Origin: Agreia sp. Leaf283
GTDB taxonomy: Bacteria > Actinomycetota > Actinomycetes > Actinomycetales > Microbacteriaceae
Direction of reading: 5' to 3'
Assembly: GCF_001422485.1 (NCBI RefSeq)
Contig: NZ_LMNF01000001.1
Span: 1,376,250-1,440,249, forward strand
Length of the DNA stretch: 64,000 nucleotides
Part shown: positions 16,426 through 25,012 of the stretch, one piece after another
How positions within the stretch are numbered: the stretch's first letter is position 1
Layout: every line of letters starts with the position of its first letter
Translations under genes and position numbers: made by a program
Notes under the pieces: generated by a model
Database searches by the model: none
What the model was told of the DNA's origin: nothing
What the model saw: the letters and a program-made list of their open reading frames with translations, nothing else

Positions 16426-17703
16426 CTAGGCCTTCAGGCCCCCGCCGGCGCGGGTGCGGAGCAGGATCATCAGCGGCGCGTTGGCCACCACGACGACCGC
16501 GGCGATGAGCCCCACCGCGGCCTCCGCGCCGATGACGTCGTAGACGGCGAGCGCGGCGAGGGGGCCAACGACGGCACCCGCGTCGCCGGCTGTGCGCGTG
16601 ATCCCGACGACCAGACCGCTCGATCTCGAGGGGAACGCGTCGCTCATCACGACCGACGGAACGACACTGCTGATCGAATTCGCTAGTCCGTAGCCGACGA
16701 TGACCAGCGCGTAGACCCAGGGGCCGTCGGCGAGCGGGAAGAGGAGCAGGGTGCCGGCCGCCGCGAGCACGCTCGGCGCCAGCACACCGAGACGCGGACC
16801 GCGGTCGATGATCCGTCCGATCACGGGCATGGCGGCCAGGGAGACCAGCGTGGCGGCCGCCAACGCGAGTCCGAGGGTGAACGGAGAGAGGCCACCCCCG
16901 TCGTATGCCAGCACGGGAATGAGTCCCTGCTCGCCTCCGAAGCGGGCGAAGAACGCGGCGAACGAGCCGAGGGCCAGCGCCGCGACGAGCGCCCTCAGCG
17001 AGCCTGCCGGCCGGGCCGGGGCATCCGATCGCACAGGCCCAGTGCTCGGCACCGATGGCGTGGGGGCCGACGACGCCTCCCAGTAGAGCCTGGCCGGTCT
17101 GACGGAGTCCCAGAGCAGGGCGAGCGCAACGGGGGCTGCGGCGACCACGAACACGCCCGCCAGCGGCAGCACGCTCAGTGCCGCGCCGCCGAGGAAGGCG
17201 CCGAGTGCGCCCGCCGACATCTGCACGGCGGTCGCCGTGGCCATCACTCTGCCTCTGCGGTCGGGAGGCGCACCGGTCACAAGAACGGCGAAGCCGATGG
17301 TGATGGCCGCCCCTCCGAGGACTCCGGCGACCACCCGGGCCGCGATCAGCGAGGCCGAGTCGGTGCACAGCCCGGTGAGCGCGGTCACCGCGATCAGAAG
17401 AATCGTGACGATGTACAAAAACGGTCGCGGCCTCCACCATCGCAGCACCAGCCCCGCGGGGATGTTCACCAGCGCCCTGCCCAGGCCGAACGCGGCGATG
17501 ATCGGGCCCAGTACGAGGGCCGAGGCGCCGAAACGGTCGACGTAGAGCGGCAGCGCGGGCACGATCGTGCCCCATGTCATCTGCGTCGCCCCGATCAGCG
17601 CGCACACGACGAGAGTCTGCTCGGTGATCGATGGCATCCGCCGCCGGTCTCCACGATCGGCCGGGGCCGACGTGGTCTCCTCGCCGACGGCGTCGCGGCT
17701 CAC
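16426..17703 (-). CDS. MFS transporter at the end of the flavin-monooxygenase operon
   Basis: A 425-residue major facilitator with about 12 membrane helices. TWGTIVPALPLYVDRFGAS and the loop LRWWRPRPFLYIVT belong to the first half, and SVVPSVVMSDAFPSRSSG falls in the second. The GTG start overlaps the stop of the upstream monooxygenase gene (GTGA), so it is co-translated with it. In this setting it could import the substrate or export a product or toxic intermediate. The cargo cannot be named from sequence. It is the last gene of the nine-gene operon, 50 bases before the helicase start. Confidence 0.9.
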   Translation of the reverse strand: MSRDAVGEETTSAPADRGDRRRMPSITEQTLVVCALIGATQMTWGTIVPALPLYVDRFGASALVLGPIIAAFGLGRALVNIPAGLVLRWWRPRPFLYIVTILLIAVTALTGLCTDSASLIAARVVAGVLGGAAITIGFAVLVTGAPPDRRGRVMATATAVQMSAGALGAFLGGAALSVLPLAGVFVVAAAPVALALLWDSVRPARLYWEASSAPTPSVPSTGPVRSDAPARPAGSLRALVAALALGSFAAFFARFGGEQGLIPVLAYDGGGLSPFTLGLALAAATLVSLAAMPVIGRIIDRGPRLGVLAPSVLAAAGTLLLFPLADGPWVYALVIVGYGLANSISSVVPSVVMSDAFPSRSSGLVVGITRTAGDAGAVVGPLAALAVYDVIGAEAAVGLIAAVVVVANAPLMILLRTRAGGGLKA

Positions 17704-19061
17704 CGGGCCAGGTTCTCGCGCAGGGTGCGGCCGGGATACGCCTCACCCATGGCGCCCCGGCGGCGCAGCTCGGGAACGAGCAGTTCGGTGACGTCGGCGT
17801 AGGAGGCGGGCATGCTCAACGGGTTGCCGATCATGTAGCCCCCGCGCGAGCCCGTTGCCGCGAAGTTCTCCTCCAATTGGTCGGCGACCTGCGACGCCGT
17901 GCCGCTGAGCGTGTAGTCGAAGCCGACCGCGTGGCGCCAGCCCCGCTCGAAGAACTCGCTGCGGCTCATCTCGTGGTCGACGCCCAGCTCTGTGATGAGT
18001 TGACCGACGAACCCCGCGGGCGATGCGTTCGCCGCGCGGATCGCGTCGGCGAGCTCGCCGAGCACCACGCGCTCGGGCACGGTGGAGAAGTCGTGGCCAG
18101 AGTTGTACGACAGGTAGACACCGACCGCCTCATCGCCCCAGTACTCGAGCATCTCGAGTTTGCGCGCCGCCGCCTCGTCCTCGCTGCGGCCGAGCACGAG
18201 TTGCGTCGTCCACAGAATTCCCACGTCGGCGGGGTTGCGTCCGTTCGACACGAGCTCGGCGTCGAGGGCCGCGCGGTGCCTCGCCTGGCCGGCCGGATTG
18301 CCTCCGATGCCGAAGATGAGGTCGGCGAACTTCGCACTTGTGCGGATGCCCTGCGGCGAACTTCCGGCCTGCACGAGAACGGGTCGCCCCTGGGGGCTCG
18401 GCACGCTCGTGAGCGGGCCCTGCACGTCGAAGAACTGGCCGTGGTGGTCGATGCGGTGAACCTTCGACGGATCGGCGAAGCGGCCGGTCTCGCGGTCCAT
18501 CACGATCGCATCCGGTTCGACGGAGTCCCAGAGTCTCTGGCAGACGTCGATGAACTCCTCCATGCGCTCGTAGCGCAGCGAGTGCTCGAGCAACTGGTCG
18601 TAACCGTAGTTCGCCGCGTCGGCCAGGCGTGTCGAGGCCACGACGTTGAAGGCGACCCTGCCGGACGTGACGTGGTCGAGCGAGTTCAGCAGGCGGGCCA
18701 CATAGAAGGGGTGCATGAACGTCGACGAGTAGGTGAGGCCGAAGCCGATGCTCTGCGTCACGGCCGACATGGCGGCGATGAACGGGCTCATGTCGTGCCG
18801 TGGCCACTGCACTCCCCATTCGACGGCGGCGTCGGTGGAGCCGCGCCAGGTGTCGGGCAGGCCTGTGCCGTCTCCGAAGAACAGCATGTCGATGCCGCCG
18901 CGCTCCGCACTGATCGCGAGTTCCTGGAACATGCGCACATCGGGGAAGGAGCGATTCGTCCATGAGCCGGGACGAGCCCAGCGGCCCTCCGAGTGCGTGA
19001 ACGACAGGTCGAAGGCGAGGTGCATCTTCTGCGTGCCCACGTCGGGGTTCGGGGTGTTCAT
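17700..19061 (-). CDS. NtaA/SnaA/DszA-family flavin-dependent monooxygenase
   Basis: A 453-residue luciferase-like (LLM) class oxygenase using reduced FMN. The family signatures are clear: MHLAFDLSF at the start, NVVASTRLADAANYGYD, RYERMEEFIDVCQRLWDS, and SPQGRPVLVQAGSSPQGIRT. Relatives oxidise nitrilotriacetate, dibenzothiophene sulfone, dimethyl sulfide or similar small compounds, always with a separate flavin reductase. Two reductases are encoded at the head of this operon. The ATG at 19061 overlaps the upstream stop (ATGA); the frame remains open further upstream, but this start fits the family length. The substrate is unknown. Confidence 0.9.
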   Translation of the reverse strand: MNTPNPDVGTQKMHLAFDLSFTHSEGRWARPGSWTNRSFPDVRMFQELAISAERGGIDMLFFGDGTGLPDTWRGSTDAAVEWGVQWPRHDMSPFIAAMSAVTQSIGFGLTYSSTFMHPFYVARLLNSLDHVTSGRVAFNVVASTRLADAANYGYDQLLEHSLRYERMEEFIDVCQRLWDSVEPDAIVMDRETGRFADPSKVHRIDHHGQFFDVQGPLTSVPSPQGRPVLVQAGSSPQGIRTSAKFADLIFGIGGNPAGQARHRAALDAELVSNGRNPADVGILWTTQLVLGRSEDEAAARKLEMLEYWGDEAVGVYLSYNSGHDFSTVPERVVLGELADAIRAANASPAGFVGQLITELGVDHEMSRSEFFERGWRHAVGFDYTLSGTASQVADQLEENFAATGSRGGYMIGNPLSMPASYADVTELLVPELRRRGAMGEAYPGRTLRENLAR

Positions 19062-19726
19062 GCGTGAGTCGACTCTCGTTCGGATTCGGTGCGGGTGGAC
19101 TGCAGCGCCTCGGCCAGTTCGGATGTGGTGGTCAGTCGGGCGACCGAGAGGGCGAGCTGTTCGAGTGCATTGGTGTGGATACGCACGTCGTAGGCCGCCG
19201 TGGCATCGGTGGCGATCAGCACCGGAAACCCGTTCTGCATGGCATCCGTCGCCGTGGCCGCGACGCAGCACTCGGTGGTGAGGCCGGCCACGATCACCCA
19301 ATCGATGCCCTCTTCGCGCAGACGCGCATCGAGATCGGTCTGATGGAAGCCGCTGTAGTGCTTCTTGGCGACACGGGTATCGCCGGGCAGTGGCGTCACG
19401 CCGTACCAGTCGGCCCCGGGAGTGCCGACGATGCACGGCTCGTCTGCCGACATCACCGTCGGATCGCCGCCGTGAAGCCAGTTGCTCGAGCCCCACGGCT
19501 GCTGAGGATCAGAGGCGAGCTCGATCCAGACCACCGGCAATTCGGCGTTGCGTGCCACCTCGACGAGGGCGGCGATCGTGTCGATCGCCGTAACGAGAGC
19601 ATCGGATGCGGCGTCGTCGAGGCCGTACCCGGCCAGGTAGGCCGGGTCGCCGAACGAGCGCTGCACGTCGACGACGAGAAGGGCCCCCGATCCGTCGAGG
19701 CCCGCGAGCACGGGATTCGCGCTCAC
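19058..19726 (-). CDS. Isochorismatase-fold cysteine hydrolase
   Basis: A 222-residue hydrolase of the isochorismatase/nicotinamidase/RutB superfamily. The Asp-Lys-Cys triad is visible: Asp in ALLVVDVQRSFGDP, Lys in RVAKKHYSGFHQTDLD and Cys in GLTTECCVAATATDAM. These enzymes split C-N bonds in amides, ureides or carbamates. Beside a RutA-like oxygenase it recalls RutB, which cuts ureidoacrylate after pyrimidine ring opening, but the sequence is not close enough to name it so. The GTG start and the stop each share four bases with the neighbouring monooxygenase genes, a strong sign of a joint pathway. Confidence 0.88.
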   Translation of the reverse strand: MSANPVLAGLDGSGALLVVDVQRSFGDPAYLAGYGLDDAASDALVTAIDTIAALVEVARNAELPVVWIELASDPQQPWGSSNWLHGGDPTVMSADEPCIVGTPGADWYGVTPLPGDTRVAKKHYSGFHQTDLDARLREEGIDWVIVAGLTTECCVAATATDAMQNGFPVLIATDATAAYDVRIHTNALEQLALSVARLTTTSELAEALQSTRTESERESTHA

Positions 19727-20790
19727 GACGCGGCCGCCGTCGACTCCTGGGCGCGCAGCCCGGGCAGCACGGCCTCGCCGAACGCGGGAAGATCCTCGTG
19801 GTAGTCGGGGAAGATCAGCATGAGCCCGTCGAGCTCGGCCCCCTCGACCACGGTGTTGATGTGGCTCTGCACGGAGTCGGGAGACCCGACCACGTACGGA
19901 GTCTGGAACGCGTCCTTGCCGCTGGCCGACTCCGTCCACGATGAGGCGCGGTCACGCGGCATTCCCCAGGAGATCCGCATGTTCACCAGCGCCTCGAGAT
20001 CGACGCCCTCGGAGATGACGTCGACGCGCTTCTGCGCCAGTGCGTCGGTCTCGTCCATGACGACGGTGAGCATCGCGTACGTCTTGACCTGGCGACCCAG
20101 AGCGGCCGAGCGGTCGTGCACGTTCCGGGAGGCGTCGCGGAGTTCCTCCATCGTGTCTCCCGAGAGGAAGGCGCCGTCGCTGCGCCGTGCCTGGAAGTCC
20201 TGGCCCGCCGGCGACCGTCCCGCGCTGATGACGGTGGGGCGCACCCGTGGATGGGGCCGCGACTCCGCGTCCTTCAGCGTGAAGAACTCGCCGTCGAGGG
20301 TGACCGAGTCTTCGGTCCAGAGCCGGGTGACGGCATCCGTCCACTCGTCGACCATGCGGTAGCGCGCCTCCTTCGACATGTCCGCGTCCCAGAGGCCCAT
20401 CTGCTCGAACTCGTCGGCATAGGAACCCGAGACGATGTTCATTCCCGCGCGGCCGTTCGAGATCTGGTCGAGGGTGACGAACATCTTCGCGGCGATCGCC
20501 GGGTTGTGCACGTTCGCGTGGACCGTCGCCCAGATCTTGACCCGCTCGGTGGCCTCGGCGATGCCGGCCATCATCGTCATGGACTCCAAAGACCGACCCC
20601 AGTGATCGGTCGACCCACCGAAGCCGCGCCACTTGGCCATCGCCATCACGAAGTCGAGGCCCGCCTCCTCAGCCAGAATCGAGGCCTTCTTGTTGTATTC
20701 GTAGCTGCCGTCGGGGTGCGGAGCCGTCGTGGAGACCAGCCATCCGCCGTTGCCGATGGGGAGGAAGATTCCGTATTCGCGTGGAGTCAT
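19723..20790 (-). CDS. RutA-like flavin-dependent monooxygenase
   Basis: A 355-residue LLM-class oxygenase. The N-terminus YGIFLPIGNGGWLVSTTAPH and the later LRPHPRVRP-like region, VISAGRSPAGQDFQARRSDG and GVDLEALVN resemble pyrimidine oxygenase RutA and its relatives in length and order. RutA opens the uracil ring between N3 and C4 using FMNH2 and O2. The protein here differs enough that another N-heterocycle, or an alkanesulfonate-like substrate, is equally possible. It lies 100 bases behind the binding-protein gene, a gap occupied by repeats, and overlaps the hydrolase gene by four bases. Confidence 0.88.
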   Translation of the reverse strand: MTPREYGIFLPIGNGGWLVSTTAPHPDGSYEYNKKASILAEEAGLDFVMAMAKWRGFGGSTDHWGRSLESMTMMAGIAEATERVKIWATVHANVHNPAIAAKMFVTLDQISNGRAGMNIVSGSYADEFEQMGLWDADMSKEARYRMVDEWTDAVTRLWTEDSVTLDGEFFTLKDAESRPHPRVRPTVISAGRSPAGQDFQARRSDGAFLSGDTMEELRDASRNVHDRSAALGRQVKTYAMLTVVMDETDALAQKRVDVISEGVDLEALVNMRISWGMPRDRASSWTESASGKDAFQTPYVVGSPDSVQSHINTVVEGAELDGLMLIFPDYHEDLPAFGEAVLPGLRAQESTAAAS

Positions 20791-20828
20791 GGGTGGAACT
20801 GCTTTCTCAAGAGTGATCGCGGGGGGAG

Positions 20829-20880
20829 CGTCTCGACAGGCTCGACGAACGGAGAGATCGTTGCCCGAGCCTGTCGAGGG
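20829..20880. repeat. Opposed family B-like repeats
   Basis: A family B copy (20829-20851, CGTCTCGACAGGCTCGACGA onward) faces a degenerate copy (20859-20880). Together they can form a hairpin between the ABC importer genes and the monooxygenase genes of the operon. Confidence 0.75.
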
Positions 20881-20890
20881 AAGGCGTGAG

Positions 20891-21985
20891 TTACGGCGCC
20901 GGCCAGACGAGGGTGGTGCCGTCGTAGATCGCCTCGATGAAGCTGTTGTCGAAGTAGGAGCGCACGTCGGCGGGGGCCGTCTTGATCTGCTCGGTGTCGG
21001 TCAGGAACGTTCCCTCGGCGTCGACGTTGTCGAGGTCGATGAGCCCCACGGGGCGGTCCTCGGGCTGGTTGTCGGCGACGATTCCGACCTCCGTCTTCCA
21101 GATCTTCTCGTTGTGAGCGGCGTCGTATCCTTCGCCGGAGAGCGTCGCGGCGTAGTCGACGCACTCGGTGGCGTTGTCGACGCAGTAGTCGTATGCGTGC
21201 TGGGATGCGCGCAGGAAGTCCTCGACGGCGGTCGGGTTGGCGCTCGCGAACTCGGGGTTCGCCGCGATGCTGCCGAGCGATCCGGGAACTCCGAAGTCGT
21301 AGGGTCGCCAGACGGTGACCTTCTCGCCGGCCGCTTCGAGGAGGTTGGGCTCGTTCGAGATGAAGCCGGTGAGCGACTGCACCTGACCGCGCGGAAGGAT
21401 GGTCGGGTCGTATCCCACGACGACCTGCTGCATCGACGAGACATCGGCGCCGGCGTTGGTCAGCATGGTCGATACGGCGGGCGGCAGGTTGCCCTTCTGG
21501 CCCAGGATCGTGCCGTCGAGCTGGGTGAGGTCGGTGATGTCCGGGTTCGTCATGAGGATCTCGAGGCCCACGTTCGAGTAGGTCGAGATGCCGAGGATGT
21601 CGAGTCCGTTGTCTCGCGCCTGGATCAGGTTCTGCTCGCTCACGCCGGTGAAGGTCACCTGGCCCGATGCGAGGAGCTGGGCGTTCTCGCCCGTGTCGCC
21701 TGTGCCCGGCTGGATGGTGACGTCGAGGCACAGGGCGTCGAAGTACCCGAGCTCGTCGGCCGCGATCACATTGAGGATCGAGGCGGAGGCCTGGTACTGG
21801 TAGCCCGTGAGGAAGGTGATGGGGCCCGCCGCCTTGTTCGTCTCGCAGCGGTCCGCGCTGATCGCGCTTCCCTCCGCGGCGGCGGGTGTGCTCGATGCCT
21901 CGGTGCCGGATGCGCTGCAGCCGGTCACGAGGGTGAGGCCTGCGAGCGACAGAACGGCAAGGGCCAGGGGGGTGCGTTTGGGCAT
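20891..21985 (-). CDS. ABC transporter substrate-binding lipoprotein (NMT1/TauA type)
   Basis: A 364-residue lipoprotein. The signal peptide ends in a lipobox, LVTGC, with Cys23 as the lipid anchor. The mature part is an NMT1/THI5-like two-lobe binding domain of the NitT/TauT group: ILNVIAADELGYFDALCLDV, QLLASGQVTFTGVSEQNLIQ and the lobe hinge. Relatives bind aliphatic sulfonates, pyrimidine precursors or riboflavin. It would sit outside the membrane and hand the ligand to the permease encoded just upstream. The gene neighbourhood suggests a small compound later oxidised by the monooxygenases, so it determines the specificity of the whole operon. Confidence 0.92.
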   Translation of the reverse strand: MPKRTPLALAVLSLAGLTLVTGCSASGTEASSTPAAAEGSAISADRCETNKAAGPITFLTGYQYQASASILNVIAADELGYFDALCLDVTIQPGTGDTGENAQLLASGQVTFTGVSEQNLIQARDNGLDILGISTYSNVGLEILMTNPDITDLTQLDGTILGQKGNLPPAVSTMLTNAGADVSSMQQVVVGYDPTILPRGQVQSLTGFISNEPNLLEAAGEKVTVWRPYDFGVPGSLGSIAANPEFASANPTAVEDFLRASQHAYDYCVDNATECVDYAATLSGEGYDAAHNEKIWKTEVGIVADNQPEDRPVGLIDLDNVDAEGTFLTDTEQIKTAPADVRSYFDNSFIEAIYDGTTLVWPAP

Positions 21986-22050
21986 GGCTGTCTCCTATGG
22001 ATGTGGTGTGGGGTGGGGTGCGAAGGGGTGGAGCGGAAGCGGGCGGGGCG

Positions 22051-22956
22051 TCAGCCCCGTGATCCCTGGCGCGAGTCGTGCCAGTGCAGGGCGCGGTTCT
22101 CGATGGCCGTGATGATGAGCAGAAGAAGCGAGCCCATCAGTGCGAGGCAGACGATCGCGGCGTAGACCACGGCAAGCCGGTTGTTCGACGACGCGACGCT
22201 GATGACCGTGCCGAGGCCCTCCGCCGCGCCGGGGGCCGCGAGCTCGGCCACGACGGCGCCGATGATCGAGAGCGGGAAGACGATGCGGAGCGCGTTGAAG
22301 AGGTAGGGGAGGGCGCTCGGCATGCGCACGTGCCAGAGGGTCTCGAGTCGCGATGCGTGGAGGGTGGTGAAGACCTGCAGTACCGCGGGGGAGACCGAGC
22401 GGAGCCCCGTCGAGACTCCGATGAGGATGGGGAAGAAGCAGATCAGGGCGGTGACGATGAGCTTGGGCTCCGGCCCGAATCCGAAGGCCACGACCAGCGC
22501 GGGCGCGATGGCGACGAGCGGAGTCACATTGAGCACGACGGCGACGGGCATGATCGCTCTGCGCGCCAGAGGCAGCTCTGACACGAGGATGGCCAGCACG
22601 TAGGCCACCACGAAGCCGATGGCGAGTCCGATCAGGGCGACCTGCAGGGTGGCCCACGCGTTCTGCAGATAGAAGAGGGGGTTTCCGGCGAGGGCCTCGC
22701 CCACTGCCGACAGCGGCGGCAGCAGGTAGGGGCTGTCCTTCGCGACCACCGTCCAGACGATTCCGAGCCCGACCAGCAGCACGAGAACGGGCGCCCAGTA
22801 GGTGGGCTTGAGGAACTGCAGGCGCGACGAGCGCGTCCCGGCGCCGGTCGTCTTCACGGGCAGGGCGACCACCGGGGCGGAGAGGGCGGGGTCGATGCCG
22901 TCGGCGGTCGTCTCATTCGCGCCGGGGGTGTCGTGGGTCGTCATCATGGATGTCAC
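22051..22956 (-). CDS. ABC transporter permease (SsuC/TauC type)
   Basis: A 301-residue inner-membrane permease with about six helices in its C-terminal part, after a polar N-terminus of about 60 residues. The EAA-type loop that contacts the ATPase is visible around LFTTLHASRLETLWHVRMPS (read as VFTTLHASRLETLWHVRMPS). The start is GTG at 22956, because TAGGAGG sits five bases before it; two ATG codons just downstream are alternatives. It follows the ATPase gene after nine bases and precedes the binding protein by 65 bases, completing a NitT/TauT-family importer. Confidence 0.92.
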   Translation of the reverse strand: MTSMMTTHDTPGANETTADGIDPALSAPVVALPVKTTGAGTRSSRLQFLKPTYWAPVLVLLVGLGIVWTVVAKDSPYLLPPLSAVGEALAGNPLFYLQNAWATLQVALIGLAIGFVVAYVLAILVSELPLARRAIMPVAVVLNVTPLVAIAPALVVAFGFGPEPKLIVTALICFFPILIGVSTGLRSVSPAVLQVFTTLHASRLETLWHVRMPSALPYLFNALRIVFPLSIIGAVVAELAAPGAAEGLGTVISVASSNNRLAVVYAAIVCLALMGSLLLLIITAIENRALHWHDSRQGSRG

Positions 22957-22965
22957 CGTGGCCTC

Positions 22966-23820
22966 CTAGGCGGCGCTCGTGATCGGACCCTCGTGCCACG
23001 CCGACTGGAGGTGGTCGCGGATGAGGTCTTCGAAGTGGTGGAATTCGGGGGTCTTGAGCATGTCCTGGCTGCGTGGCCGGTCGAGAGTGATGTCGACCGA
23101 GGCCGTGATGCGGCCGGGCCGGGCAGACATCACGAGCACGGTGTCGCTCAGACGAACGGCCTCGGTGACCGAGTGCGTGACGAAGACCACTGTCGACTTC
23201 TGCTCGTCCCAGATGTCGAGCAACTGGCCCTGGATGGCCTCGCGGGTGAACTCGTCGAGCGCCGAGAAGGGCTCGTCCATCAGCAGCACGTCGGGCTGCA
23301 GGCCGAAGGCGCGCACGATGGCTGTCCTCTGCTGCATGCCGCCGCTCAACTGCGCCGGAAGCTTGTGCACGGCGTCGCCGAGTCCGACCGCGGTGAGCAG
23401 GGCGCTCATGTCGGGAGCCTCCTTCTCGACGTGCCCGCCGATGCGTTTGCGCCGCCGCTCGGAGCCTCGATTGACCTTGGCCGGCAGGCTGACGTTCTGG
23501 AGGACATCGAGCCAGGGGAGCAGGGCGGGAGCCTGCGGTACGAGACCGATCATCTTGGCCGCGCACGCGGCATCCGGGCTCACGCCGAACACGCTGGCCG
23601 TGCCGGCATCGGGCGTCTCGAGGCCGGCGATCAGCCGGAGCAGCGTCGACTTGCCGCAGCCGGACGGGCCGATGATGCTGACGAATCTGCCTCGCTCGAT
23701 CTCGACGTCGACGTTGTTCAGGGCCACCTGCTGTGTGGCCCCCGATCCGTAGATCTTCACCGCGCCCTGAATCGAGATCGAGTCGGGGCGTGCAGCGGCG
23801 GGAGTGTTCACCGTGTTCAT
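22966..23820 (-). CDS. ABC transporter ATP-binding protein (SsuB/TauB type)
   Basis: A 284-residue ATPase that drives the importer. Walker A is GPSGCGKST, the signature is LSGGMQQR, Walker B is DVLLMDEPFSALDE and the switch His is in VVFVTHSVTEA. All key residues are intact. The C-terminal extension (RSQDMLKTPEFHHFEDLIRD) is typical of NitT/TauT ATPases. The ATG at 23820 lies five bases after the flavin reductase stop. The frame is open further upstream, but that stretch overlaps the reductase gene and is not conserved in the family. Confidence 0.93.
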   Translation of the reverse strand: MNTVNTPAAARPDSISIQGAVKIYGSGATQQVALNNVDVEIERGRFVSIIGPSGCGKSTLLRLIAGLETPDAGTASVFGVSPDAACAAKMIGLVPQAPALLPWLDVLQNVSLPAKVNRGSERRRKRIGGHVEKEAPDMSALLTAVGLGDAVHKLPAQLSGGMQQRTAIVRAFGLQPDVLLMDEPFSALDEFTREAIQGQLLDIWDEQKSTVVFVTHSVTEAVRLSDTVLVMSARPGRITASVDITLDRPRSQDMLKTPEFHHFEDLIRDHLQSAWHEGPITSAA

Positions 23821-23825
23821 GGCGG

Positions 23826-24332
23826 TCAGACCAACTTCCTGAATTCGCGGTTCTGGTAGACGAGGGGGTCGCGCGCGGTGCGCAGTACATCGGTGACGGC
23901 GACGATGATCATGAGGTGATCCCCGACCGTCCAGCGCTCGTGCACACGGCCGACGATGGATGCCTGCGCACCCGTCACCACGGGGACGTGGTCGAAATCC
24001 TCGTGCAGGGTGACGGCGGCGAACTTGTCGACTCCTTTGGTCGCGAAGTGCCGGGCGATGTCGCCCTGGCCGTCGGCGAGGATGTTCACGGCGACCTGGT
24101 CGGTTTCGGCGAACGCCGGGTAGCTCTCGGCGGTCTCGGCGAGGAAGACGGCGACGAGGGGAGGTGTGACGGACACGTTGGTGAAGCTGTTGGCGGTGAA
24201 GCCGTGTGCCGTTCCGTCGACACTTGTGGTGACGAGGGTGACCGAGGTCGCCATGCCGGCCAGCGCCCGCCGGAGTTCTGCGGGGTCGAAGCTCGACGCC
24301 GGCGCTGTCGTGATGGTCTGAGAGTCGGTCAT
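23826..24332 (-). CDS. Flavin reductase domain protein (HpaC-like)
   Basis: A 168-residue NAD(P)H:flavin oxidoreductase of the small split-barrel type. Seen are LRRALAGMATSVTLVTTSVD at the N-terminus, HGFTANSFTNVSVTPPLVAV (flavin phosphate site), and the C-terminal DPLVYQNREFRKL that closes the fold. Its role in such operons is to feed FMNH2 to the partner monooxygenases. The ATG overlaps the stop of the upstream FMN reductase gene (ATGA). Having two unrelated flavin reductases in one operon suggests one for each oxygenase. Confidence 0.92.
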   Translation of the reverse strand: MTDSQTITTAPASSFDPAELRRALAGMATSVTLVTTSVDGTAHGFTANSFTNVSVTPPLVAVFLAETAESYPAFAETDQVAVNILADGQGDIARHFATKGVDKFAAVTLHEDFDHVPVVTGAQASIVGRVHERWTVGDHLMIIVAVTDVLRTARDPLVYQNREFRKLV

Positions 24333-24850
24333 GCCGCCACCCCGCTCGCGGAGAGAAGGGCGCGCCGCGCGTCGATCCACGAATCGAAGAGAGCATCCCT
24401 GGCATCGGGGTCTGCGGCCGTCGCGTCGGGCAGGAAGAGTCCGCCTGCCGGGCTGATGGCTCCCAGCTCGTCGAGCAGAGGCTGCAGGTGAGTCGAACCG
24501 GCGAGGGAGTGCTGCGCGGACGCCGCGATGGTCAGGGGAATCGTGCGCGTCGCGGACAGGGCGTCAGCGGCGTAGCCGTCGAGGAACGCCTTGAGCATGC
24601 CGGTGTAGGAGCCCTTGTAGACGGGGGTCGCGATCACCAGGACTCGGGATGTCGAGAGCTCGTGGCGGCGGTCGATCAGCTCGGAGTCGCTGTAGTCGAG
24701 CGCTCGGCCGCCGTAGCTCGCGAGGTCGATCGGCGAGAGGGCCTCGGCGCCGATCGCTTCGGCGACTTTCTCGACCAGCGAGACCGCGGCGGCGAAGGTC
24801 TTGGAGTTCGGTCGGGGGTTTCCGACGACTCCGGTGACGATGAATGACAA
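24329..24850 (-). CDS. NAD(P)H-dependent FMN reductase (SsuE/MsuE-like)
   Basis: A 173-residue flavodoxin-like reductase: VVGNPRPNSKTF is the FMN phosphate loop, VIATPVYKGSYTGMLKAFLD the second flavin-binding loop and the dimer contact. It is related to SsuE/MsuE, which serve alkanesulfonate monooxygenases. The best start is an unusual TTG at 24850, because GGGAGG precedes it by four bases and the family N-terminus (SFIVTGVVGN) follows at once; no ATG or GTG lies nearby. It is the first gene of the nine-gene operon. Confidence 0.88.
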   Translation of the reverse strand: MSFIVTGVVGNPRPNSKTFAAAVSLVEKVAEAIGAEALSPIDLASYGGRALDYSDSELIDRRHELSTSRVLVIATPVYKGSYTGMLKAFLDGYAADALSATRTIPLTIAASAQHSLAGSTHLQPLLDELGAISPAGGLFLPDATAADPDARDALFDSWIDARRALLSASGVAA

Positions 24851-24993
24851 CGTGCCTCCCAGGCTCTGGTGGTGCCGACGCGAACGTCGGCCAGATGAAT
24901 GGAGAGCGAGCGGGTGAAGTGCCGATGAGACAGATGGCCCGCGGAGGTCCGTGAGAATCACAGTAGGGCGATCGTGTTTCGCACCGGGTCGCC

Positions 24994-25012
24994 ACACGTT
25001 ACGCGCGTGTAA
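24994..25012. promoter_or_regulatory. Candidate operator before the flavin-monooxygenase operon
   Basis: Two overlapping palindromes lie 144-162 bases before the TTG start: ACACG (24994-24998), seven bases, CGTGT (25006-25010), and TTACGCG/CGTGTAA (24999-25012, one mismatch). TTAC...GTAA spacing is common for dimeric regulators. No regulator gene is adjacent. Confidence 0.35.

Follow-up and report, generated by a model that had tools for sequence, protein, structure and literature searches.

A conserved actinobacterial operon encoding RutA-like and NtaA/DmoA-family flavin monooxygenases, possibly for the catabolism of a pyrimidine-like N-heterocycle

A 64,000-nucleotide stretch of the genome of Agreia sp. 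Leaf283 (contig NZ_LMNF01000001.1, positions 1,376,250 to 1,440,249; hereafter the window, with 68.7% G+C in a host genome of 3.98 Mb) carries a nine-gene operon which, with a probability that we put at about one half, serves the catabolism of an imported, pyrimidine-like N-heterocycle containing a cyclic amide. The parts belong to known families, the least familiar pieces being a leader element and a small protein, c8, that accompany the operon. The preliminary description of this DNA knew of no pathway with exactly this set of genes, and none turned up in literature searches by gene-name combinations, most subscription journals lying outside their coverage.

In the proposed pathway, whose order of steps and substrate class are putative, an ATP-binding cassette (ABC) importer would take up the ring compound, genes 1 and 2 would supply reduced flavin mononucleotide (FMNH2), the RutA-like enzyme (gene 6, oxygenase 1) would cleave the ring amide via a flavin-N5-peroxide and the isochorismatase-fold hydrolase (gene 7) would take off the amide or ureido group so formed. 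Oxygenase 2 (gene 8, NtaA/DszA-like) may act in a second flavin oxygenation, with either the substrate or a product as its target, and the major facilitator superfamily (MFS) protein may transport either of these, while expression would be controlled at the promoter and then through a structured leader RNA.

The best solved relative of gene 6 is RutA (207 bits), followed by dimethylsulfone monooxygenase (132 bits), and SfnG ranks second among its curated families. Of the residues forming the dioxygen pocket of RutA, T105, N134, V136 and F224 are kept and L65 is replaced by Met (4/5 kept), a replacement found in all four operon sequences aligned and invariant in 20. Mutations of T105, N134 and V136 are reported to have abolished RutA activity, T105S excepted, and three enzymes are named for flavin-N5-oxide chemistry, RutA and DszA among them (PMC7662398). 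The kept pocket residues therefore support RutA-type oxygen chemistry in gene 6 but not the name RutA, since both the curated score and the position in the tree differ: gene 6 reaches 262 bits against NCBIfam TIGR03612 (RutA; 261.6 bits when the genome was searched), missing the cut-off of 498.3, and a tree of 40 proteins sets the 16 operon enzymes apart by a branch (support 98/94), on the same side as two further rows, namely the enzyme from an Acinetobacter plasmid and a solitary gene from genome G238. RutA stands in a separate group with RutA-like enzymes of a paralogous operon (reported support 100/98 and 100/99), and SfnG and SsuD are far off; the tree program flagged long branches for SsuD and four others, including the Acinetobacter and Agrobacterium vitis enzymes. 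This placement, neither inside RutA or SfnG nor beside SsuD, argues against calling gene 6 RutA; for oxygenase 1, the one covered by a tree, it goes against the refuting case named in the preliminary description, in which both oxygenases would fall inside a single known clade.

The hydrolase shows the residue pattern D-x-Q-xx-F, K-x5-F-xx-T and G-x5-C-x3-T, the same pattern being given, as nine conserved active-site residues, for BiuH and seven relatives (PMC5806882). All nine of these residues occur in gene 7 at equal spacing, including the Asp-Lys-Cys triad, as far as an alignment judged by eye against that list can tell, and a Tyr occupies the site of the substrate-binding Lys145 of BiuH, as it does in RutB. 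Its solved relatives with a named function comprise biuret hydrolase, RutB and N-carbamoylsarcosine amidohydrolase, as well as nicotinamidases and isochorismatases; by sequence, the substrate of gene 7 is likely to be a carbamoyl or amide compound.

Oxygenase 2 is, by the curated cut-off, a member of the NtaA/DmoA family (372.8 bits against TIGR03860, cut-off 279.7). Its placement within that family rests on search scores, and the solved relatives rank as DszA (244.5 bits), LadA (222), DmoA (211), HcbA1 (184), YtnJ (173) and riboflavin lyase (169.6); by these scores the riboflavin enzyme is not a nearer relative of gene 8 than several of the others. It differs from DszA in its setting, adjoining a RutA-like enzyme and an amidase, and DszB and DszC, which we take to be the partners of DszA, were not seen in this operon.

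The nature of the ligand is suggested chiefly by the substrate-binding protein (gene 5), which scores 101 bits against Pfam PF09084 (cut-off 20.5). A profile of 18 such binding proteins retrieved six sequences from the PDB, namely ThiY (3ix1), four of the Thi5 type (hydroxymethylpyrimidine synthase) and 4nmy, whose title in the sequence search is ABC extracellular solute-binding protein and which the fold search lists as thiamin-bound. In an AlphaFold2 model (predicted local distance difference test score, pLDDT, 88.6) fold ranks 1–21 were of the ThiY/Thi5/4nmy kind, ahead of TauA and SsuA, with fold matches at 16–20% identity. The model and these comparisons favour an aromatic, pyrimidine-like ligand. 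As the nearest solved relatives are pyrimidine proteins of the thiamin pathway, an N-heterocycle is favoured over a sulfur compound, which narrows the preliminary description: it had proposed an N- or S-containing substrate, and the second of these now appears less probable.

The gene calls and the linkage of the genes are well supported. All nine genes were confirmed on the minus strand (Table 1), gene 1 lying at the 24850 end and gene 9 at the 16426 end, and their Pfam families are, in order, FMN_red, Flavin_Reduct, ABC_tran, BPD_transp_1, NMT1, Bac_luciferase, Isochorismatase, Bac_luciferase and MFS_1. Four pairs (1-2, 6-7, 7-8 and 8-9) overlap by 4 bases and the remaining gaps within the set are 5, 9, 65 and 100 bases, so that strand, coordinates, families, the four overlaps and the mostly short gaps (under 70 bases) given in the preliminary description all hold. 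Gene 1 most likely starts at TTG 24850, which is preceded by GGGAGG at 24860-24855, and gene 7 starts at GTG 19726 or 19711. Against the NCBIfam SsuE model gene 1 scores 69.5 bits, under the cut-off of 164, and gene 2 shares 29% identity with E. coli RutF across 156 columns.

Conservation was assessed in 299 genomes of the host's family and in 80 named loci (L numbers denote loci throughout), the best 80 of 317 relatives of the RutA-like protein, which were found with two peptide patterns from that protein in 84,980 species genomes scanned with the RutA-like alignment. These 80 loci are a non-random sample, some of them end at contig edges, and their genes come from a custom caller that misplaced some starts and missed some genes. 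Within the family, oxygenase 2 was present at an identity of at least 63% in 20 of the 299 genomes (own included), the next matches dropping to 56–57%, and genes 6, 7 and 8 were contiguous in all 19 loci around its orthologues (one per family genome, own excluded), with the ABC cassette directly upstream in 15 (L033-L047) and divergent in four (L048-L051). All names among the 80 loci are actinobacterial, including Agreia, Cryobacterium, Herbiconiux, Curtobacterium, Subtercola, Actinoplanes, Nonomuraea, Amycolatopsis, Streptomyces and Nocardiopsis; the binding-protein gene directly precedes the RutA-like gene in 72 of them and the isochorismatase gene directly follows it in 63, the two overlapping in 62 of these 63. 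The order of the operon genes is thus conserved beyond chance. The neighbourhood search called for in the preliminary description, carried out over the 80 loci and as co-occurrence in the 299 genomes, found the set conserved and, together with the family assignments, bears out its view of one unit, in which two oxygenases of the FMNH2 type are joined by reductases, an importer and a hydrolase that cleaves amide or urea groups.

Smaller variations were also seen. In L048-L051 the trio of genes 6 to 8 faces a divergent ABC cassette accompanied by genes that resemble alcohol dehydrogenase and LacI, and a further NtaA-like gene lies in three of these four stretches. In Actinoplanes relatives (L070:7678-9960, L077 and L086) the RutA-like gene is preceded by a tandem pair of genes for NMT1-type binding proteins. 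A genome of the same genus as the host (G004) has a 98% identical gene 6.

Several findings weigh against N-heterocycle catabolism as proposed here. No counterpart of RutC, RutD or RutE accompanies the operon, which leaves the fate of a ring-opened product unexplained, and gene 7 stays far under the curated cut-offs for RutB (61.9 bits against 377.95) and BiuH. At 20% identity to 3ix1, gene 5 is a weak guide to the class of ligand. An HpaC-type reductase was found in 43 of the 80 loci and an SsuE-type one in 29, many loci lacking one or both, some of them because contigs end. L172 (G238:C2:304741-305790) holds a lone RutA-like gene of the operon clade and no other operon gene in 20 kb. An NtaA-like oxygenase is the second gene downstream of the RutA-like gene in only 53 of the 80 loci and is missing near that gene in 14 of the 15 from Nocardiopsis, so that the place of oxygenase 2 in the pathway is uncertain; since, in addition, no importer was found beside the RutA-like gene in a few loci (L073, L083, L098 and L107), the commonest core consists of the importer, the RutA-like enzyme and the hydrolase. 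Of the sequential attack by two oxygenases with amide cleavage that had been envisaged in the preliminary description, RutA-type oxygen chemistry and an amidase active site are supported by the residues found; the step assigned to the second oxygenase is uncertain.

RutA-like enzymes recur in several clusters together with amide-cleaving proteins, and one of these clusters points to thiamin pyrimidines. In the paralogous operon of L052-L058, RutA-like and NtaA-like (56–57%) oxygenases likewise adjoin, with an NMT1 binding protein confirmed in L052, but an asparaginase-like protein stands in place of the isochorismatase and a GntR-type regulator is present; in the tree the RutA-like enzymes of L052, L053, L055 and L057 are nearer to true RutA. 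A similar set occurs on an Agrobacterium vitis plasmid (L153), with an NtaA-like enzyme at 55% and a RutA-like enzyme that forms a long branch placed elsewhere. On an Acinetobacter baumannii plasmid (L152:8128-12622) an MFS protein, a RutA-like enzyme (48%), an isochorismatase and a flavin reductase are found beside insertion sequences, a protein annotated there as peptidase M20 having a Pfam score under the cut-off, and a Pantoea plasmid combines a 41% RutA-like enzyme with a Rid-family protein, an aldo/keto reductase, a flavin reductase and a BMP-type importer. Genome G059, in which the operon is also present, carries a sister cluster (L173:1693-11987) in which an NMT1 binding protein and ABC genes are accompanied by GntR, a pair of sister RutA-like enzymes, two Rid-family proteins, an amidohydrolase and TenA, and for which degradation of thiamin pyrimidine is possible. 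The NMT1-type importer, which the preliminary description had taken to set the operon apart, is in view of this cluster a weak distinguishing mark.

Some relatives also encode a riboflavin kinase. Its signature was found near the operon in 17 of the 80 loci (the window operon has no kinase), 13 times in proteins of 572-788 residues belonging to the MFS cluster, as a stand-alone protein in L066, L073 and L083, and as an N-terminal fusion to c8 in L071. In some relatives an MFS-riboflavin kinase fusion replaces gene 9, both domains being confirmed by Pfam in L043, the one fusion tested. Four of 70 plasmid records were inspected for comparable settings: on three plasmids, from Arthrobacter sp. 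68b, A. dokdonellae and an Agrobacterium, a riboflavin kinase has flavin-oxygenase genes nearby, and that of a Phaeobacter plasmid adjoins lumazine synthase and a flavin adenine dinucleotide (FAD) monooxygenase, because of which these kinases are not tied solely to two-component flavin oxygenases. The simplest reading is that the kinase supplies free FMN to two-component oxygenases rather than taking part in riboflavin catabolism, and the plasmid kinases near oxygenase genes of other make-up fit such a supply.

Four other explanations have to be weighed, of which one is a narrower form of the reading preferred here. The ring could be a breakdown product of thiamin, e.g., deaminated hydroxymethylpyrimidine, the operon then degrading the pyrimidine of vitamin B1. 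The thiamin-pathway relatives of the binding protein and the presence of TenA, an NMT1 binding protein and an amidohydrolase in L173 speak for this, and hydrolysis of the 4-amino group would yield the amide that RutA chemistry needs; nevertheless we consider it rather unlikely, as the window genes include neither TenA nor a deaminase, the window gave no Rfam match, the L173 binding protein has LDWTPNTNHTGLYVA near its start where the window protein differs, and just one sister cluster of this kind was seen. An actinobacterial uracil/thymine (Rut) pathway with its transport and late steps replaced would account for what the operon shares with the E. coli rut operon, namely a RutA-like oxygenase with a kept oxygen pocket, a RutB-like cysteine hydrolase and a RutF-type flavin reductase, and also for the finding that in 346 phylum genomes no RutA passes the curated cut-off, G546 falling just short of it with 485.9 bits. 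This appears distinctly unlikely: the RutA-like enzyme scores 262 against 498 and belongs to a separate clade outside RutA, none of RutC, RutD, RutE and RutG was found among the nine genes and c8, and beyond the rut set the operon contains a second oxygenase, an ABC importer of the NMT1 type, an MFS protein, c8 and a leader hairpin.

The MFS-kinase fusion was the reason for considering catabolism of riboflavin or lumichrome, in which oxygenase 2 would cut off the side chain, the RutA-like enzyme open the uracil ring, the hydrolase remove urea and the kinase trap riboflavin. In the rca cluster a riboflavin kinase and a ribokinase accompany riboflavin lyase; the rca genes and the lum cluster share with the present operon an NtaA-family enzyme, riboflavin lyase being a relative of oxygenase 2, and share with some of its relatives the kinase. 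Neither kinase is among the window genes, however, 63 of the 80 loci have no riboflavin kinase signature, and oxygenase 2 scores higher with DszA, LadA, DmoA, HcbA1 and YtnJ than with riboflavin lyase. Kinases also occur near flavin-oxygenase genes of other make-up, as on plasmid p2MP of Arthrobacter sp. 68b, a presumed pyridine degrader whose p2MP cluster we take to act on pyridine; that cluster resembles the operon and its relatives in having a flavin oxygenase, a flavin reductase, an amidohydrolase and a stand-alone riboflavin kinase but differs in its semialdehyde dehydrogenase and RidA protein, and in having no ABC cassette in the stretch examined. A riboflavin cluster does exist in Microbacterium, yet the lumichrome route described there uses a P450 and hydrolases and opens the pyrimidine ring hydrolytically, and a text search of the main text found no mention of RutA or isochorismatase (PMC12746152). 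On account of this description and of the kinases near other oxygenases, riboflavin catabolism was lowered to an improbable explanation. Least probable in our judgement is sulfur assimilation from an organosulfur compound by DszA-like and SfnG/RutA-like enzymes, which would suit the nearness of oxygenase 2 to DszA, the rank of SfnG as second family for gene 6, the SsuE-like gene 1 and the resemblance of the importer ATPase and permease to nitrate, taurine and sulfonate importers. Against it, the nearest relatives of the binding protein are thiamin-pathway proteins rather than TauA or SsuA, gene 6 falls with RutA and its kin instead of SfnG or SsuD, and the active site of the hydrolase is of the C-N amidase type. 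The Bacillus subtilis ytmI-ytnM genes, which serve S-alkylcysteine, combine two flavin oxygenases (one NtaA-type), the riboflavin kinase RibR, an amidohydrolase and an ABC importer, and have no RutA-like enzyme; the likeness concerns gene content, YtnJ alone having been compared here, by its score with gene 8.

If the substrate is indeed an N-heterocycle of the proposed kind, its identification could add a route for the degradation of such compounds and test N5-peroxide amide cleavage beyond uracil. Relatives of RutA and DszA are kept together across many actinobacterial genera, and the operon offers a defined set of genes, a binding protein for ligand screening, a leader supported by covariation and an orphan protein that tracks the operon.

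This orphan protein, c8, has no match in Pfam or NCBIfam, family and sequence searches having given nothing convincing, and has one match in its own genome. It was found in 20 of the 299 family genomes, 19 of them among the 21 with an orthologue of the RutA-like enzyme and one among the 278 others (Fisher p 8e-27). One of the two orthologue genomes without c8 is G238, where no other operon gene lies nearby, and the lone exception, G227, has a weak match just 5' of a type I restriction-modification methylase gene. As c8 is also distant from the RutA-like gene in some genomes (about 25 kb in G207, about 9 to 11 kb in G014 and G251), its link with the operon is more than one of position. The nine genes of the preliminary description are thus real and linked, but the unit is larger than described, since c8 and the leader track it.

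An AlphaFold2 model of c8 (pLDDT 93.9) gave three Foldseek matches at E ≤0.001, among them XisH (2inb, E 2.6e-4, template modelling score 0.63) and Card1 (6xl1, E 7.2e-4); these and the other matched structures presumably carry the PD-(D/E)XK fold. The nuclease motif of that fold is (D/E)xK on the third strand. At this site c8 has Gln61-x-Val63, with Gln in 45/45 sequences and no Lys among the five commonest letters at position 63 (44 of 45 rows), and Gln61, Gly67, Arg74 and Lys83 are invariant in all 45. A fold of the PD-(D/E)XK type without the usual nuclease motif is therefore predicted for c8, and binding of nucleic acid is plausible from the model. A distant relative lies directly before the HsdM methylase gene of a type I restriction-modification locus (L174:8630-9136), and the fusion of a riboflavin kinase domain with c8 occurs naturally in Paractinoplanes atraurantiacus (L071:14308-15093).

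Between c8 and the first operon gene the word CGCTCTCC recurs in 32 of 45 gaps, while any 8-mer reached at most 6 in 20 mononucleotide shuffles. A covariance model of the leader was built from 47 elements, the seed being chosen by eye from pattern hits 5' of operon genes after removal of false-looking and duplicate hits; the seed pattern fixes the CCGC and GCTCTCC-type ends, where conservation is partly by construction, and does not fix the covarying columns 18-22 and 45-49. Besides the window, the model matches 65 of the 80 loci at E ≤0.016, including loci outside the seed, and further matches at E 0.39 to 0.88 in three loci or window stretches were counted as noise. The next called operon gene begins 24-188 bases downstream in 49 of the 65, overlaps the leader in four and lies farther away in 12, partly because genes were missed. 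Among the 21 family genomes with a RutA-like orthologue 19 have the leader, in one copy each.

For the helix 16-22/45-51 the covariation score was reached by none of 500 shuffles and exceeds that of all slid registers; pair 19-48 is GC in 24, UA in 17, AU in 5 and CG in 1, with no exception in 47, cell counts that are inflated because the sequences are related. A quick protein tree implies four changes for this pair and, for pair 20-47, a total of 15, some of them to unpaired states. Single-sequence folds gave an outer GGA/UCC helix, an internal loop and an inner helix in seven of nine cases (L119 and L068 differ outside the inner helix), with a fold energy z below -2 against shuffles in four of nine and of -2.38 for the minimum-energy fold of the window. 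Against the hairpin count that pairs 21-46 and 22-45 are unpaired in 18 and 17 of the 47, the window lacking both, that RNAalifold alone recovered three of seven pairs in the seed (-0.38 kcal/mol), and that a measure of further pair types was reached by 179 of 500 shuffles and, in a second run, by 86 of 500. The alignments support the covarying helix of a putative structured RNA, and as its loop varies from 10 to 22 nucleotides in the seed, an RNA hairpin suits better than a DNA operator. No Rfam match was found in the window or in L120, L127 and L138.

Upstream of the leader, pairs of [AT]AAC 22 or 23 bases apart occur 33 times in 65 regions (at most 4 for any spacing in 300 mononucleotide shuffles) and CTAnn[GT]T occurs in 42 of the 65, a count made without a shuffle control. 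A scan with the sigma-70 consensus found no promoter, but because of these two upstream elements transcription may start at the leader, and from its position and the candidate -10 box we infer that it is transcribed; a regulatory role is putative. A more far-reaching proposal, which we regard as doubtful, is that the leader represents a new ligand- or protein-sensing RNA class dedicated to the pathway. Its partner would be c8, a protein of the PD-(D/E)XK fold lacking the usual nuclease motif, which would recognise either the leader or the neighbouring promoter repeats and be linked with FMN supply by way of the occasional kinase fusion, the operon as a whole being an undescribed oxidative route in which RutA-type and DszA-type oxygenases act on one N-heterocycle.

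Table 1. Features of the operon and its upstream region, in window coordinates
Feature	Coordinates	Strand	Basis or description
Gene 1, NADPH-type FMN reductase (SsuE-like), 173 aa, TTG start	24329..24850	-	Pfam FMN_red 8.8e-15
Gene 2, HpaC/RutF-type flavin reductase, 168 aa	23826..24332	-	Pfam Flavin_Reduct 8.5e-38
Gene 3, ABC importer ATPase	22966..23820	-	Pfam ABC_tran 2.9e-30
Gene 4, ABC importer permease	22051..22956	-	Pfam BPD_transp_1 1.8e-22
Gene 5, NMT1/THI5-type substrate-binding lipoprotein	20891..21985	-	Pfam NMT1 1.2e-28
Gene 6, RutA-like flavin monooxygenase (oxygenase 1), 355 aa	19723..20790	-	34.7% identity to E. coli RutA
Gene 7, isochorismatase-fold cysteine hydrolase, RutB/BiuH-like	19058..19726	-	Pfam Isochorismatase 1.3e-36
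Gene 8, NtaA/DmoA-family flavin monooxygenase (oxygenase 2), 453 aa	17700..19061	-	NCBIfam TIGR03860 372.8 bits
Gene 9, MFS transporter	16426..17703	-	Pfam MFS_1 1.4e-32
c8, conserved partner protein, 139 residues	25027..25446	-	PD-(D/E)XK-type fold predicted, without a conserved (D/E)xK
Leader hairpin, conserved	24893..24957	-	outer GGA/UCC helix, internal loop, inner helix GCGGG/CCCGC; covariance model 42.1 bits
Direct repeat GTAACG (25002-24997) and GAAACA (24980-24975), 22 bases apart, candidate activator site	24975..25002	-	
CTACTGT, candidate -10 region just 5' of hairpin	24960..24966	-	

Two further roles considered for the leader were rejected. Pairing of CUCUCC with the Shine-Dalgarno sequence gave a mean longest duplex of 5.4 against 4.55 in shuffled sequences and was above the control in 54% of 50 loci, an anti-Shine-Dalgarno pairing that reaches 4 base pairs in the Streptomyces rows alone and is not general. 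As the marker of a wider regulon the leader yielded four weak extra matches in the 299 genomes (G032, G038, G052 and G111), which lie inside called frames and near which there is no operon gene, bar a generic ABC ATPase similarity in G032. The leader was also found in seven of 216 class genomes, six times beside operon-type genes; the seventh, a weak match in L198 (G753:C268:158411-158469, E 1.5e-4), shows no operon gene in the surrounding 1.5 kb or so. At the other end of the operon, the gene after gene 9 begins 50 bases on and, read by eye, encodes a large helicase-like protein, a downstream protein of similar size being present in L033 alone among the 19 loci L033-L051.

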